This document shows, piece by piece, positions 608-8,459 of a DNA stretch of 64,000 bases (position 1 is the first letter of the stretch; each line of letters starts with the position of its first letter). The notes under the pieces were generated by a model. The model searched no databases. It saw only the letters and a program-made list of their open reading frames with translations, and was not told the DNA's origin. Position numbers and translations under genes: made by a program. Source of the DNA: Symbiodinium natans (Eukaryota; Sar; Dinophyceae; Suessiales; Symbiodiniaceae); the NCBI GenBank assembly GCA_905221605.1, contig CAJNDS010002117.1, positions 124,001-188,000 on the forward strand, written 5' to 3'.

Positions 608-3600
608 CTCATCGGTGACCATCAACGTGACTCGCTGACCGAATTCGCCAGCCTTTCCAACAGTAAGACAGTCCGCAAGGCCGGCATTCAGACCACAGGT
701 ACCCGAGTACAGCACAACAGCTTATGGTTCAGAGGATTCGCACGAGGGCAGCCCCTATGCCAAGTCATTGCAACGAGCTGGCCTGCATCATCTTTCTCAG
801 GACCTGTGCGAAGCACATGGTAGTGCTGATCTCTCTTCCTTTGGATCCTGCCAGGTGCCAAGTCTCCAAGTCGAGAAGAGCCAGAAGGGGCGGGAGCCAT
901 GAAGGCGATATCGACAGGGGCATGGGGTCATTAGGTGTCCGTTGACCCAAAAGCAATGGGATTGGTAAAAGACAACTTCCGTGAGCTCCAAAGAACCAGC
1001 TTTTGCAATGTAGACATGACATGGTCCCATCAGGGATGCAACAGGTCCTGTGTCAAACATGTCGTAAACATCGTGCTTGGGGATATCGACCAGCGCGGAC
1101 ACCTTGGCGTGCTCTTGAATGCAGTATGCGCATGAATCTACACGCAACTCGCTCAGACATGGTCAGACAAAGCACCTTCGCCGGCGATCGCAACGGAAGA
1201 AAGCCCCCGAGAGCCTGTCGCCGCTCCTTCAGGTACTTGACCTGCAAAACGGCCAACGGTTATCGGGAAGTGGCGCGCCCTTGCATCTTTTAGCTAATGT
1301 GATTAAATAGACCCGCCCAGTAGCAAAGCACACGTGGTTCTGTAAACATACGCTTGTCCGGGACATGTCATGTATGGGGCCTCTGGGGAGTCCTCCTTTA
1401 GTGCGAAGAAATTCTCCGCCTGGGGCAGGGGGATGCGTAAAAGCTGTTCATCCTGGAAGGAGCCCTGTGATGAGCGTCAGACATCAGCTTTTACCAGCTG
1501 CTCATCAGTTTTTGGAATGCCCATGGCATCGCCTCAGCTTCCAGCAATCAAGACAGCTAAGCTCTAAGGCGAGCCAGCTGTATCGGATCCAGAGAAGCTG
1601 GGCATCGTGCGATAAGCCTTCCTCAGTCAGTAGCACGAGTCTGCTGTTTCTCAGCCGATCGTGAGCAGGGTATTGGTAGCTTCATACGGACTGAGAAGTG
1701 AGCATGTCGGAGTCCGACATCATCTTCTTCTGGTGAACCGTGTTTCTTCCCAGGAAAGTTTGCAGGCTGTAGCCCTTGCAACAGGTAGGGTGCCCAGGTA
1801 AGCATCAGTTGGCAAAAAAACCTGATGCAGGCAACTCTGCGCAGCACCTTGAGGGTCTTGACGAGAATGACCTCAGAACACAAGCTCCATTGCAGTCGAG
1901 TCACATTGCGGTCAGGGCAGCTGCAATCGTGGAAGCAACAAAATTGGGCTGTCAAATGGCTGAGCTTTGGAGGCCAAGGTACGGTGGGTCGACCTCCCAT
2001 CTCCGAATTCTTCTCTGCCTGGGGCTGGCGGAGAAGAGAAACGAGTCTTGCTTGTGTCTGCGCGTCATGTCATACACAGCGGAGAATCATGGAAGTCCAC
2101 AGCCAGGTCCCATAGCAGAATCCCTGCCTGAGAAAAAGCTGCGTAGATCTTGGAGTGGTCATGCCCGCCAGGGGTCTGGAAAGCCTTGCAAAGACACGTC
2201 CACACAGCGCGGAACACACATGCTTCGGCAGATGCAGTAACGGCAGGCGGAGCTGATGCACGACGCTGGCATTAGAATCTGGCCTCGAGCAGTTCTGCGT
2301 CACTCCAGTGAGCTACGCGGTCCAGCAGCCCGTGCTTCTCAAAGATGTCCTGTGAAAGATGGGTTCTTGTCACAGAATGCTGCATTTGTGGACAGACCGC
2401 GGATGTTGTGGCAGTCCTTTCGGATCAGAGCACCATCCGCCTTGAGCCGTCACATGCACACGCTGCTATGGACAAGGTACTGCCGACATGCACGTACAAC
2501 TGGCAACACGATGCTTCCTTCAACATGGAAACGGTGCCTTGGCATGAAGGCGCTGACAATCGCCATCTACAGTGGCCTCCAGCGCCTGACACAAACAATG
2601 AAGTAGGAACATGCCAATGCGGTATCTGAACGAGATGCAACATACGGGATGGAGCAAGTTGACAGACAGATGCATGCATGATCAACAAACAAGCAAACAG
2701 GCAAACAAGCAAAGAAGCAAGCAAGCGAGCTAGCAAGAAGCAACCAGACAGACATGAAGACAGGCAGGCAGGAAGGCAACCGGACAGGCAAATGTGGAGA
2801 GATGGCGCGAAAGCAATGGCAAGAGAGAGAGCGAGAGACAGAGAGACAGAGAGAGACAGATAGAGAGAGAGACAGAGAGACAGAGAGACAGAGAGACAGA
2901 GAGACAGAGAGACAGAGAGACAGAGAGACAGAGAGACAGAGAGACAGAGAGACAGAGAGAGACAGAGAGACACAGAGAGAGACAGAGAGAGACAGACAGA
3001 GACAGACAGAGACAGACAGCGACAGAGACAGACAGAGATAGACAGAGACAGAGAGCGACAGAGAGAGACACAGAGACAGGGAGACATAAAGAGGAGAGAT
3101 TGAGACAGAGAGACAGAGAGACACAGAGAGAGAGAGAGAGAGAGCGAGCGAGAAAGAGCAACTGGAACAGCTCAGTGCATTGGATGGATGCATTCCAGCA
3201 GGCCTCGATGAGCTTGCCATCGTGGTCCTGTTCGATGAGTTCGTTGAACTTGCCTCCCCAGATAAGCTTGATGACGTCGAAGCCAGCTCCGCGGAAAGTC
3301 CCCTCGTACTCCTGCATGACCTTTGAATTTCCGCGCACCGGACCGTCCAGGCGCTGGTAGTTGCAGTTCACGATGAAGATCATGTTGTTGAGGCGCTCAC
3401 GACCAGCCACTGAGATGGCCGTGATCGACTCGGGCTCATCCATCTCTCCGTCGCCCACAAAGGCCCAGACCCTGCTCTTCGAAGTGTCTGCAAGGCCTCT
3501 CAGATGAAGGTACCGGAAGAAACGTGCCTGGTAAACGGCACCCAGAGGTCCCAGCCCCATGGAAACTGTAGGATTCTCCCAGAAATGCGGCATCAAACGA

Positions 3601-4610
3601 GGGTGCGGATAGCTGGAGACACCATTGCCTGCGACTTCGCGTCGGAAATTCATCACCTGGTCGATCGTGAGACGGCCCTCAACAAAAGCTCTTGAGTAGG
3701 CGCCTGGAGCTGCGTGCCCTTGCATCCACACACTGTCACCTCTGCCATTACCATAGTCTTTGCCTCGGAAGAAATGATTCATACCAACCTCGACCACATC
3801 GCAAATTGATGCGAAAGTGCCGATGTGTCCACCAACCCCGCCACCTCGCCGATTGGCATCGCTGACCATGACGGCTGCATTCCAGCGGATGATGTTTGAA
3901 AGGCGATCCTCCATTGCCCGATCTCCAGGGTACTGGGGCTCAGCAGAGGTGGGAATGGAGTTGATCATGGGCGTGACCACCGGCTGCGAGATATGCACCC
4001 CGAGGCGCGCTGCCTCTTCCATGAGCTCGTGCATGAGGAACCGAGCGCGTGTTGTCCCCAAATTCTGCACAACGGCATCGAGGGACTCCAGCCACTCGTG
4101 TGTCTCGGACTCATCAAACGTGGGCCTTGCAGCCCGTAGCCTCTCCTGGTTTGATGGAAAGTGCCCCGTGTGCTGATGCATAAAGGCCAAGGAGGCTGAG
4201 AATGCGGGCATGTCTCCTTGCAGTCCTTTGGCAAACTCACCGTAGGTGATGATGCCAGACTTGTCTGTGTCGAAGTGCGCAAACAGAGACTCGCTCTCTG
4301 AATCACTTAGCTTCAAGCCGACCGAGGCCATGGTCTCCCTGAACTCCTGCGGGTCCAAACCCTTTGAGACGTTCTGGTCAGCCCTGGCAAACCAGCTGGC
4401 TGACAGAGACGAAAGGGTCGTGATGCCCTCTTTGGCAAAGATGCCGCTGAGCTCGGACAGGAGGTCATGGGGAGAGCGGCTGCCGCTGATGCCCACTCCC
4501 GAAGGCGTACCTCCGTGTCGCCAGTGGAGGGCCATGCCGCGAGTTACCTGCCGCAGCACAACTGGCCTCCGGAAGACATGGCCCCGGCAGAGGCGGGCAG
4601 CCAAAGTCAT
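608..4610 (-). CDS. aceE: EF-hand-fused pyruvate dehydrogenase E1, homodimeric AceE type (13 exons seen, 3' part outside window)
   Basis: This is the thiamine-diphosphate E1 that decarboxylates pyruvate in the PDH complex, in its bacterial homodimeric form. Exons, 5' to 3' on the minus strand: 4610-3204, 2585-2538, 2349-2284, 2184-2128, 2018-1983, 1871-1848, 1774 to about 1691, 1532-1495, 1419-1381, 1241-1176, 1102-1048, 847-783 and 652 to about 608. Reading frame is kept across all joins except the exon 7 donor, which I could not place. Exon 1 has 469 codons from the ATG at 4610: an Arg-rich, presequence-like N-terminus (about 1-35); EF-hand loops at 78-89 (DQNVSKGLDPQE) and 114-125 (DTDKSGIITYGE); then AceE sequence with the GHIGTF and QGHAAPG histidine motifs and the ThDP motif GDGEMDEPES...NCN (386-417). 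Later exons carry GRPT, VILVKTLK, GRNTVHQKK (catalytic-loop His kept), DEQL, YLKERRQALGGFLP and GREISTTM. About 675 residues are visible; roughly 350 C-terminal residues must lie left of base 1. The longer open frame into the GA repeat after 3204 is intron read-through. Mitochondrial location is inferred only. Confidence 0.9.
2586..3203 (-). repeat. aceE intron 1 filled with an 8-bp GA-rich tandem repeat
   Basis: The intron runs from a GC donor (exon end GAG, then GCCTGC) to a CAG acceptor. Most of it (about 2825-3155 on the plus strand) is gagacaga repeats with variants. The repeat leaves several frames open, which creates false Ser/Leu/Cys-rich or Arg/Glu-rich proteins. Confidence 0.85.
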
Positions 4611-5216: not shown

Positions 5217-6653
5217 TCAAGCTCCAAGTCCTGTGCCCTGAAGAGCATCGGCGGCTGCAACCCCAGCTGCGTGTCCGCTTGACCAGCAGCCTTGGAAGTT
5301 GAACCCGCCGGTGATGCCATCCACATCCAAGAGCTCACCTGCGAAGTGCAGACCTGGATGTGATCTGAGCTCCATTCTGTCCCAATCCAGCTCTCGCACA
5401 TCCACCCCACCTGCGGTGACAAACTCCTCCTTGTTCAAACGACGGCCTTGCACCTCCACCTCGTGCACCGTCAGGTGGTTCCAAAGTGTCGTTGCAAGCA
5501 ACTTGCTGGCTTCGGGACATCCAAAGACAGCCCAGGGCCACTGTCTGAGCGGCAAGCCGTCTACCTTGTACTGTCGCACGAAGGGTCTGAAGTTGCTGCT
5601 GCCTTCTTCTGCTTCCAGCTTCTGGAGCAGCCGTCCCCAAAGACGGGCAGGCAGTCGCCGTGGCCAAGGGGACACATCTCCAAGCGGCTTCCGTCGCACC
5701 GGGGGTCGGTTCTCACGACCCGATGGGACAGCGAGTATTGCCTCTGCAGCGTCATCTGGGGACCGTAAGAAGGGCACCCAGTTGAGTCGCAGTTTGGCCC
5801 GGTACCCGACCTCTTTGAGAGCAAAGGCCCCCCAAGCTGACAGGCGCAGAATACCGGGTCCAGATAAGCCCTCGTGGGTGATGAGAACTGCTCCACGAAT
5901 CGGAGGAAGAGATGGAAGATGCTCGCCAACAATTTCAATGGCAGCATCTGGCACAGACAGCCCCTGCAAGCCAGCAAGGTCAGGCGACCGGGTGAGCACG
6001 GAGAACAGCGAGGGAGCGACAGGTCGCACTTTGGCACCAGCATCTTGAAGCAGTTTCTGTACCGAGCGCTTTTGGGCCGAGCCCATGCACAAGATGGCCC
6101 GGCGGCAAAGAACGGCACACTGCGCAGACTCCGTCTCTATCTCAAGGGAGAATTGCGTGAATGGGGGCTCCACGGATACTTTCCGCAAGGCGCACACACG
6201 GGCTCCCAAGAGCATCCTGATGCCAAGCGACTCCGCTGTTGACACCAAACAGTCCACAATGGTTTCAGACTTGTCTGACAGAGGAAACACTCTTCCATCC
6301 GATTCTGTTTTCAGCTGAACACCTTTCGATTGAAACCACTGGGTAACATGAGCAGCACTATGTCGCCTGGCAAGATGAGCCATGAGCTCTGAGCCTCGCG
6401 GGTAGCTGCTCTGAATCAAAGCCGGTAAAGCCACGGGATCATGCGTAACATTGCAGCGACCTCCACCTGAGATGCTGACCTTACGAAGCAGTGAGTCGGA
6501 CTTCTCGACGATCAGGATCTCCCCTATTCGTCGCTGTGTCGTGGCAACCCGTTCGGCGCTTGAAATGGCAGCATAGAACCCAGCAGCTCCGCCGCCAACA
6601 ACACAAAGCCCAACAGTGTGTGGAGAATGGGGGAGCGCACGGACAATGGCCAT
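5217..6653 (-). CDS. HI0933-like (YhiN/BaiN family) NAD(P)/FAD-dependent oxidoreductase, single exon
   Basis: A complete 478-residue flavoprotein with no intron, from ATG (6653) to TGA (5217). The N-terminal dinucleotide-binding motif VVGGGAAGFYAA sits at about residues 18-29. The family signature ISGGGRCNVTH follows at about 61-71. The middle part has the LxCMGSAQK and THEGLSGPGILRLS patterns typical of HI0933-like proteins. The C-terminus carries the second FAD-contacting segment, FAGELLDVDGITGGFNFQ, followed by CWSSGHAAG. The length is somewhat above the usual ~400 residues, with insertions in the middle. The family has few characterised members; bacterial BaiN takes part in bile-acid dehydroxylation, but no substrate can be assigned here. 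No clear targeting peptide is visible. It lies between aceE and an MDR gene on the same strand. An intron-less gene in an intron-rich neighbourhood could mean retroposition or transfer; that is inference. Confidence 0.9.
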   Translation of the reverse strand: MAIVRALPHSPHTVGLCVVGGGAAGFYAAISSAERVATTQRRIGEILIVEKSDSLLRKVSISGGGRCNVTHDPVALPALIQSSYPRGSELMAHLARRHSAAHVTQWFQSKGVQLKTESDGRVFPLSDKSETIVDCLVSTAESLGIRMLLGARVCALRKVSVEPPFTQFSLEIETESAQCAVLCRRAILCMGSAQKRSVQKLLQDAGAKVRPVAPSLFSVLTRSPDLAGLQGLSVPDAAIEIVGEHLPSLPPIRGAVLITHEGLSGPGILRLSAWGAFALKEVGYRAKLRLNWVPFLRSPDDAAEAILAVPSGRENRPPVRRKPLGDVSPWPRRLPARLWGRLLQKLEAEEGSSNFRPFVRQYKVDGLPLRQWPWAVFGCPEASKLLATTLWNHLTVHEVEVQGRRLNKEEFVTAGGVDVRELDWDRMELRSHPGLHFAGELLDVDGITGGFNFQGCWSSGHAAGVAAADALQGTGLGA

Positions 6654-6784
6654 TGCGCTCTGATTCTGGTCAGGCAGGCAATCGACTTCAGTTTACTCCC
6701 GATGGGCGCCTTGAGGGGAGCATCCGATTCGTCTAACAAGATTAGCCTCTGGATCCAACCTCCTGAAGATTTCAATGAGGGAAA

Positions 6785-7217: not shown

Positions 7218-8447
7218 TCAATGACCAAAGGTCAGCAGAATCTTGCCCACAGCTCTTCGGCTTTTCTGCCTATCCATTGCCTGCACGATTGCCTCGCTAG
7301 ACTGAAGCACGTCAAATCTGGAGTCGACTGGCACTTCCTTCAATTTACCAGAGTCAAAAAAGCTATTCAGCTTCTGCATTCGCGTCTTTGTTGGTACCAG
7401 CAAGAACCAGTCGTAGCCCTCCCTTTGCAATCGCAGTCCAAACGGGCGAGTTAAGCTGTCCAAAGAGCCGCGCAACTGGTCTAACGGTTGGGGGCAAGGT
7501 CCAATGGCAAGGTAAGTCCCATTGGCTCTCCGCAGTTGCCCCAGCATGGGCTCATAGTCGGGATCTTCTGGGGCGTTGCTTGTGACAGTGTCGTAAATTA
7601 CATCGAAGTATCGACCTTTCGACATCAATCCATCCATCTGGGAAGGCTGCTTGTAGTCCACGACAGCATCGACATTGGCATGCAACTGTTGGACAAAGTC
7701 GGCATTATGACCTCCACAAATCCCAGTGACCTTTGCCCCAATGGCACCTGCCAGCATGACCCCGAACTGGCCACAACCGCCTGATGCACCAACCACGAGG
7801 ACGTTATGATTCGGGCCAAGCCCACCCCGCTCATAGCCCATCAATGTGGTAAGCCCTGCCACTCCAAGACCCGCAGCTTCGTCAAAGCTGAGCTTGCCAG
7901 GTATTGGCACGGTCAAAAAGCACGGCAACACGGCGAACTCGCCAGCCACACCGATTGAGATGCCCCAGACCTTCTCACCAACCTTCACATCACACAGGCT
8001 CGAAGTGCCTACTGAAAGCACCACGCCCGACACATCGTACCCGATGGGCCAGTCTCTGCGCAAGTGTCTCACGAAAGGCCAAGTTGCAGTAATCATTGGA
8101 TGCTTAAAGTTGGATGGGTTCAGCGCCACAGATTTCACTTGAATCAAGACCGAAAAGTCGGAATGATGGGGAACTGGTATATCCGCCATCTTCCAGCCGA
8201 CACCTTCTCCCACTGTGTAGACAGCCGCTCGCATACTAGTGCGGCCAACTACTTCAGATGTGTCGTACGTCAGCTGGCCCAGATGTAAGTTCGAGCCCCG
8301 CAATGCCTCAAAGCCTCCAAGCAATAATGCTGCAACAAGTGCCTGGCAAGAGATGCAGAGCAGTCTCTTCGTGAAGCAAAACGACAACAAGACCACAAAT
8401 GCCAGGATTGCTCCTTCTGCGGCATACAGGGTCCATGCCAGGGACAT
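7218..8447 (-). CDS. Membrane-anchored MDR-superfamily oxidoreductase (quinone-oxidoreductase/RTN4IP1-like), single exon
   Basis: A complete 409-residue protein from ATG (8447) to TGA (7218). Two hydrophobic stretches at about residues 10-27 and 29-46 suggest a membrane anchor or signal anchor. The MDR/GroES-like catalytic domain begins near residue 70 (MRAAVYTVGEG), with VKSVALNPSNFKHP and the GYDVSGVV motif. The Rossmann segment VLVVGASGGCGQFGVMLAG at about 216-234 is the NADPH-binding glycine motif, followed by VDAVVDYK and FDVIYDTV. The structural-zinc cysteine set is absent, which fits zinc-free quinone oxidoreductases or enoyl reductases rather than alcohol dehydrogenases. The C-terminal block near RRAVGKILLTF is typical of the family. 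It is a same-strand neighbour of the flavoprotein gene. The substrate is unknown. Confidence 0.9.
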   Translation of the reverse strand: MSLAWTLYAAEGAILAFVVLLSFCFTKRLLCISCQALVAALLLGGFEALRGSNLHLGQLTYDTSEVVGRTSMRAAVYTVGEGVGWKMADIPVPHHSDFSVLIQVKSVALNPSNFKHPMITATWPFVRHLRRDWPIGYDVSGVVLSVGTSSLCDVKVGEKVWGISIGVAGEFAVLPCFLTVPIPGKLSFDEAAGLGVAGLTTLMGYERGGLGPNHNVLVVGASGGCGQFGVMLAGAIGAKVTGICGGHNADFVQQLHANVDAVVDYKQPSQMDGLMSKGRYFDVIYDTVTSNAPEDPDYEPMLGQLRRANGTYLAIGPCPQPLDQLRGSLDSLTRPFGLRLQREGYDWFLLVPTKTRMQKLNSFFDSGKLKEVPVDSRFDVLQSSEAIVQAMDRQKSRRAVGKILLTFGH

Positions 8448-8459
8448 TGCACTAGCTCA

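Follow-up and report, generated by a model that had tools for sequence, protein, structure and literature searches.

A gene on the minus strand of a 64-kb stretch of the Symbiodinium natans genome (C1805:124001-188000 of a 759-Mb genome; this whole stretch is called the window here) encodes a pair of EF-hands fused to AceE, a homodimeric E1 enzyme. The gene product is probably the E1 (decarboxylating) subunit of the predicted mitochondrial pyruvate dehydrogenase (PDH) complex, an archaeal-type homodimeric AceE that stands in place of E1 alpha/beta and has a built-in calcium sensor. From the sequences we infer, on grounds that we consider sound, that this E1 would sense calcium, since the fusion is genuine, occurs in single transcripts and has conserved calcium-ligand positions. 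In the wider scenario, about which we are evenly divided, a directly calcium-gated E1 would have been built once by joining an EF-hand pair to an archaeal AceE, would have passed between dinoflagellates and diplonemids, replaced the ancestral mitochondrial E1, and been duplicated in dinoflagellates into paralogues that sense calcium by different loops.

EF-hands and AceE in a single chain

Exon 1 extends from the ATG at window position 4610 to position 3204 (minus strand) and consists of a single uninterrupted reading frame of 469 codons (1407 nt). In this exon, Pfam identifies an EF-hand pair above the curated cut-offs (EF-hand_7 with an E-value of 4.2e-8 and 33.9 bits against a cut-off of 30; EF-hand_8 with an E-value of 5.9e-8, also above its cut-off) and a transketolase-type thiamine diphosphate (ThDP) domain, PF00456, while NCBIfam assigns residues 163-470 to TIGR00759, aceE, with an E-value of 6.9e-139. 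A preliminary description, made from the DNA letters, had proposed a 469-codon exon with a presequence-like start, an EF-hand pair and AceE, and had called for a domain search of it; splice model, Pfam and NCBIfam agree with that proposal, the domain search returning both the EF-hand pair and AceE. The first loop, DQNVSKGLDPQE, has its ligand positions present and a lysine in place of the glycine at position 6. The second loop, DTDKSGIITYGE, is canonical at every position, as had been described (aspartate at position 1, ligands at positions 3 and 5, glycine at 6, a hydrophobic residue at 8 and glutamate at 12). In the structure predicted by AlphaFold2 from a 65-row alignment, which replaces an earlier 12-row model with a mean predicted local distance difference test score (pLDDT) of 66, a helix-loop-helix pair with short strands is present. 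Conservation of the linker following the EF-hands equals or exceeds that of the EF-hands themselves. The amino-termini of 57 proteins contain a median of seven arginines or lysines and one aspartate or glutamate within their first 40 residues.

Exon 1 by itself scores below the whole-protein cut-off of TIGR00759, because only a single exon was scanned; the full spliced product of 1051 amino acids reaches 1148.6 bits, passing the curated cut-off of 859.9, and the related proteins P0001, P0042 and P0074 are likewise above it. PF00456, PF17831 (PDH_E1 middle) and PF22613 (transketolase C-terminal) are found in one chain in P0001, P0042, P0069 and P0074, and in this gene PF00456 is located in exon 1 and PF17831 in a downstream exon. 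Ten residues of the E. coli enzyme that we take to have catalytic and ThDP-site roles (H106, H142, Y177, D230, N258, N260, H407, E571, E636 and H640) are identical in an alignment with P0001, and the motifs containing them are present in the product of this gene. Among solved structures, residues 165-470 are closest to chains of E. coli PDH E1 and the amino-terminal part to EF-hand proteins; AceE, transketolase and phosphoketolase chains are among the 50 matches listed in the structure searches. PF00676, the family of the E1 alpha chain, has no match in exon 1 or in P0001. With E. coli-type AceE (TIGR00759) the protein shares the catalytic body, the ten catalytic-site residues and the E2-binding amino-terminal segment, but, unlike it, has about 160 extra residues ahead of AceE, made up of the presequence, the EF-hand pair and the linker.

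A search of 5.8 billion proteins returned at least 67 proteins with an EF-hand Pfam domain among the best 120 of 8000 scored, none of them ranked below P0083, and 59 of these 67 are 1003-1074 amino acids long; the top set of a profile search is largely identical. EF-hand-bearing relatives from the MMETSP and EukProt transcript assemblies are complete open reading frames, with the amino-terminus, the EF-hands and AceE in one protein. Because transcript-derived full-length proteins keep this same order, the EF-hand and AceE parts belong to one mRNA. Transcripts starting past the EF-hands, or separate mRNAs for the two parts, had been named in the preliminary description as what would speak against the fusion; the MMETSP and EukProt reading frames join both parts. 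Two genes on one strand are ruled out by these complete proteins and by the continuous frame of exon 1. The chance that the fusion is an artefact of assembly or annotation is practically negligible, given the uninterrupted frame, the identical order in many transcript and metagenome/metatranscriptome proteins, and a second paralogue in the genome with its EF-hand and AceE exons ordered alike.

Two members of the set are named: Karlodinium veneficum P0024, whose loops are readable although Pfam lists no EF-hand for it, and the P0074 protein of Diplonema papillatum, encoded on a 262-kb contig. The clade labels "dinoflagellate" and "diplonemid" are based on the named members, this genome and the tree. 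The peridinin-chlorophyll protein family, not known outside dinoflagellates, has 125 matches in the genome. Where a calcium-fused E1 of dinoflagellates had been described, the fusion stands, but it is not limited to this gene or to dinoflagellates, as diplonemids carry it too. P0122 (MMETSP, 867 amino acids) is an AceE-like protein that carries a cold-shock domain and lacks a match to EF-hands; it may represent a second fusion or a chimeric transcript.

Origin of the fusion and conservation of its loops

In a 79-row tree of the AceE columns, 28 eukaryotic proteins form one branch, with a Shimodaira-Hasegawa-like approximate likelihood ratio test (SH-aLRT) value of 100. This branch contains a dinoflagellate clade (98) and a diplonemid clade (99), with P0082 unplaced, and is joined at 93 by five archaeal proteins of the Poseidoniales type, Poseidoniales being marine group II. 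In a slower tree of 29 rows, support is 100/100 for the eukaryotes, 99/96 for the eukaryotes together with the Poseidoniales-type archaea, and 84/89 for a split between dinoflagellates and a group of diplonemids plus P0082. As archaea are the nearest prokaryotes in both trees, a bacterial donor is unsupported, and the designation "bacterial-type" in the preliminary description has to be replaced: among AceE proteins, those of archaea (Poseidoniales) are closer to this enzyme than those of bacteria. The trees also lend no support to the assignment of dinoflagellate aceE to Actinobacteria in a review table (PMC11351557) and agree with PMC12699882 on an archaeal-type AceE in Diplonema. An EF-like loop in an open frame upstream of AceE was found at none of 80 prokaryotic aceE loci, with a pattern that, as a positive control, matches 67 of 69 full-length fusions.

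When profiles of the dinoflagellate and diplonemid amino-terminal parts are compared, they match over the EF-hands and the linker with an E-value of 8.8e-35. The linker alone gives an E-value of 3.3e-12 and a probability of 97.6%, ten column-shuffled controls giving at most 2.1%. This homology of a non-EF linker between the clades rules out two independent fusions, and, since EF-hands and linker are both homologous, the fusion was apparently made once and is common to dinoflagellates and diplonemids. Dinoflagellates are alveolates and diplonemids are Euglenozoa (PMC12699882). Because these lineages are distant and the fusion was made once, transfer of the fusion gene from one eukaryote to another is the simplest explanation; an ancient gene lost very many times may be an alternative. 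P0082, a JGI protein from short contigs, is a eukaryotic-type AceE with a presequence-like start and groups weakly with the diplonemids.

The second AceE paralogue, of type B, is located on contig C1668, where exon-like matches begin at 330.1 kb, close to the beginning of the stretch examined there, and extend to about 623.5 kb; a final match at 627.2 kb is weaker. The paralogue appears to cover about 293-297 kb in tiny pieces, an extreme gene length, and is seen as exon-level matches only, in sequence with 7,500 N among 160,000 bases. Its loop 1 seems to be complete and split across two exons (DKDRSKSIG, then AEE), while its loop 2 is altered, beginning with DPKKTGEISY and having a lysine at ligand position 3. 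As the 5′ part that forms one 469-codon exon in the gene in the window (copy A) is divided into many separate pieces in copy B, copy A has probably lost introns at its 5′ end.

Loops were compared in an alignment of 77 rows, restricted to proteins of at least 850 amino acids, with loops of odd length scored as not complete. Set aside were P0035 and P0073, which are truncated, and P0082, P0086 and P0088, which are without EF-hands, leaving 72 rows with readable loops. Both loops are complete in 33 of these, loop 2 only in 20, loop 1 only in 17 and neither in two; at least one complete calcium loop is therefore present in 70 of the 72. Three groups make up the dinoflagellate proteins: clade A, to which the relatives of this gene belong, clade B, and a third clade of two members. 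Clade A and the diplonemids conserve the ligand positions of loop 2 more strictly than its remaining residues; in clade B the ligand positions of loop 1 are constrained and loop 2 is released. In a position permutation, in which the sets of four positions at least as conserved as the ligands are counted out of 495 (uncorrected), clade B gives 3 for loop 1 and 387 for loop 2, and the diplonemids give 475 and 35. Such reciprocal constraint between clades would be expected if the protein needs one or more working sites. P0074 differs from the 11 other diplonemid-clade rows in having neither loop complete, and D. papillatum may, going by its sequence, have lost calcium sensing.

Gene structure and surroundings

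A splice-aware alignment of the contig with P0001, a close relative, yields 34 exons, from contig position 128610 to 117763, totalling 3153 nt (Table 1). Their product is free of stops, with a TGA immediately after the final codon, and a pseudogene is ruled out by this model for this copy. Exons 2-34 (n=33) are short (median 52 nt, longest 105 nt), and a colinear series of matches along the gene is also seen by plain tblastn. The model introns start with GC, GT or GA and end with AG, a pattern that is not independent evidence, because the aligner rewards GT, GC or GA donors and AG acceptors and the pattern is thus partly built in. Exons 1-15 and part of exon 16 are contained in the window. The gene had previously been given as 608..4610, of which the right limit is the ATG; the left limit is only the end of exon 15, and the interval is incomplete, because the window edge cuts through exon 16, and exons 17-34 follow further to the left.

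Table 1. Features of the EF-hand/AceE gene, in window positions
Feature	Position	Strand	Evidence
Exon 1 (469 codons): presequence, EF-hand pair, linker, first ~310 AceE positions	3204..4610	-	splice model, length check, Pfam, NCBIfam
Presequence-like N-terminus, residues 1-30	4521..4610	-	7 R/K, no D/E in first 40 residues
EF-hand loop 1, DQNVSKGLDPQE, residues 78-89	4344..4379	-	
EF-hand loop 2, DTDKSGIITYGE, residues 114-125, canonical	4236..4271	-	including Pfam
Conserved linker, residues 126-162, predicted helix; bridges EF-hands and AceE N-terminus	4125..4235	-	
AceE N-terminal part: homologue of E. coli E1 E2-binding N-terminus and ThDP-site residues	3204..4124	-	
Exon 2	2538..2585	-	splice model
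Exon 3	2417..2440	-	splice model
Exon 4	2284..2349	-	splice model
Exon 5	2128..2184	-	splice model
Exon 6	1983..2018	-	splice model
Exon 7	1848..1871	-	splice model
Exon 8, carries His equivalent to E. coli H407	1704..1774	-	splice model and alignment
Exon 9, 11 nt	1611..1621	-	splice model alone
Exon 10	1483..1532	-	splice model
Exon 11	1381..1419	-	splice model
Exon 12	1176..1241	-	splice model
Exon 13	1048..1102	-	splice model
Exon 14	783..847	-	splice model
Exon 15	609..652	-	splice model
Exon 16, first part; gene goes on leftward to contig C1805:117763	1..27	-	splice model

A GA-rich simple repeat (window 2820-3170) is located in intron 1, just past exon 1 on the minus strand, and a spurious open frame extends through it. 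The neighbouring genes, an HI0933-like FAD protein (5217-6692) and a relative of zinc-type alcohol dehydrogenases (7218-8456), are on the same minus strand, forming a one-directional gene row. No relic of a trans-spliced leader was found within the window at up to three mismatches.

Proposed calcium control and its alternatives

Dinoflagellates are reported to be without a conventional mitochondrial PDH (PMC4779609, PMC4102578), as the preliminary description had stated, and typical PDH is called seemingly absent from them (PMC4779609). A bacterial-type E1 is on record for Amphidinium carterae and Alexandrium tamarense, not for Symbiodinium minutum (PMC4779609, citing Butterfield 2013 and Wisecaver 2013). 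For Diplonema, PMC12699882 reports an archaeal-type AceE, citing Zahonova et al. 2023 for the diplonemid enzyme, that probably works with the E2 of another complex; its mitochondrial set includes the calcium uniporter MCU and three EF-hand proteins, one MICU1-like and two unnamed in the passage. The reported diplonemid AceE and the Amphidinium and Alexandrium E1 are of the same family and probably the same genes as those described here, P0074 being the Diplonema papillatum protein. Zahonova et al. 2023 are said to have documented AceE in dinoflagellates as well. Because AceE has already been published for both groups, only the EF-hand module can be new: the enzyme itself is known, while what looks new is the calcium module joined to it, the single origin of that module and the loop difference between paralogues. 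No description of EF-hands on AceE was found in the excerpts of the open-access literature searched; the module may have been noticed earlier, for example by Zahonova et al. 2023 or among the unnamed EF-hand proteins of PMC12699882.

The single PF00676 match in the genome is an open frame at C1768:973202-974101 (minus strand) that corresponds to a branched-chain E1 alpha joined to the start of E1 beta, its best solved matches being the alpha and then the beta chain of branched-chain ketoacid dehydrogenase (BCKDH); as short exons hide genes from such a search, it does not prove that a PDH E1 alpha is missing. In this dinoflagellate, alpha and beta of the BCKDH E1 may thus form a single chain.

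For the fused E1, we lean towards direct calcium control, probably of E1-E2 docking. The E1 would be imported into mitochondria, where matrix calcium would bind mainly to loop 2 in this copy and to loop 1 in the second paralogue. The calcium-bound EF-hand pair would shift against the adjoining conserved linker helix, and this shift would alter the engagement of E2 by the next segment, the AceE amino-terminal helices, whose E. coli counterpart docks on the peripheral-subunit-binding domain of E2. Calcium would in this way set the docking or coupling of E1 in the complex directly, without the separate phosphatase that animals use. In animal PDH, the calcium-stimulated phosphatase PDP1 opens the enzyme by dephosphorylating E1 alpha. 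Calcium would tune pyruvate oxidation in both systems, but in the fused protein the sensor would belong to the E1 itself, an unrelated enzyme that has no E1 alpha chain. Mitochondrial glycerol-3-phosphate dehydrogenase and the aspartate-glutamate carriers are likewise mitochondrial metabolic proteins with an EF-hand sensor of their own; they are unrelated to AceE, and their EF-hands face the intermembrane space, whereas the fused E1 would sit in the matrix. A search of the genome for the MCU family gave nothing, but neither did the control genomes, and a search for the E2 family gave no match, with 10 of 14 controls positive and short exons that may hide E2; neither result can be read as absence.

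Several observations weigh against calcium control of the fused E1. The linker helix has a pLDDT of only about 56 in the 65-row model, 20 of the 57 amino-termini have at least two acidic residues within the first 40, and the permutation counts for clade A are only moderate (46 for loop 1 and 22 for loop 2). Glycine 6 is missing from loop 1 in all 69 rows counted, for which reason the affinity of this loop may be low, P0030 and P0074 have neither loop complete, and the related AceE P0082 has no EF-hands; for it, loss of the module seems likelier than a primitive state, although we are unsure of this. Fisher's test, which disregards the tree, associates the two loops with p 0.04, and a tree-aware pair test of loop dependence, with few informative pairs, gives no significant result (median p 0.5). 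With exactly one complete loop in 37 of the 72 rows and none in two, with the glycine never present in loop 1, and with loss of both loops tolerated by P0030 and P0074, the EF-hand pair could be a structural or constitutive metal module, always filled with calcium or magnesium, that stabilises the amino-terminus or the dimer and is deaf to calcium signals. This we consider unlikely, if not to be dismissed lightly: acidic ligands are unnecessary for a purely structural pair, but ligand positions are kept in one loop per clade, along with the linker, across deep divergence.

The module might instead be a docking domain for complex assembly, fitting an archaeal-type AceE to a foreign E2 of the branched-chain or 2-oxoglutarate complex, with calcium incidental. 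It directly precedes the segment homologous to the E2-binding amino-terminus of E. coli E1, its linker is as well conserved as noted above, and Diplonema is reportedly without conventional PDH and probably borrows E2 and E3 (PMC12699882); this explanation nevertheless appears rather improbable, as it leaves the preserved calcium ligands unexplained and P0082 is an AceE without the module. It is very improbable that the enzyme acts outside mitochondria or on a 2-oxoacid other than pyruvate, and is thus no mitochondrial pyruvate E1. AceE-like alpha-ketoglutarate dehydrogenases do exist, and the product matches their exception model TIGR03186 with 1014.6 bits, but this is under the cut-off of 1408.3, whereas the aceE model is matched above its own; another compartment is opposed by the basic, acid-poor amino-termini and by the presence of Diplonema AceE in the predicted mitochondrial proteome (PMC12699882).

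Pyruvate dehydrogenase is the gate from glycolysis to respiration, and two major marine protist groups seem to share, by one fusion event, a calcium sensor wired into this enzyme. Pyruvate oxidation in dinoflagellate and diplonemid plankton may thus be under direct calcium control. If true, this would be a second, independent logic of calcium control over respiration; it would bear on how the dinoflagellate tricarboxylic acid cycle runs without a conventional PDH, and it would mean that a regulated central enzyme has moved between distant eukaryotes.

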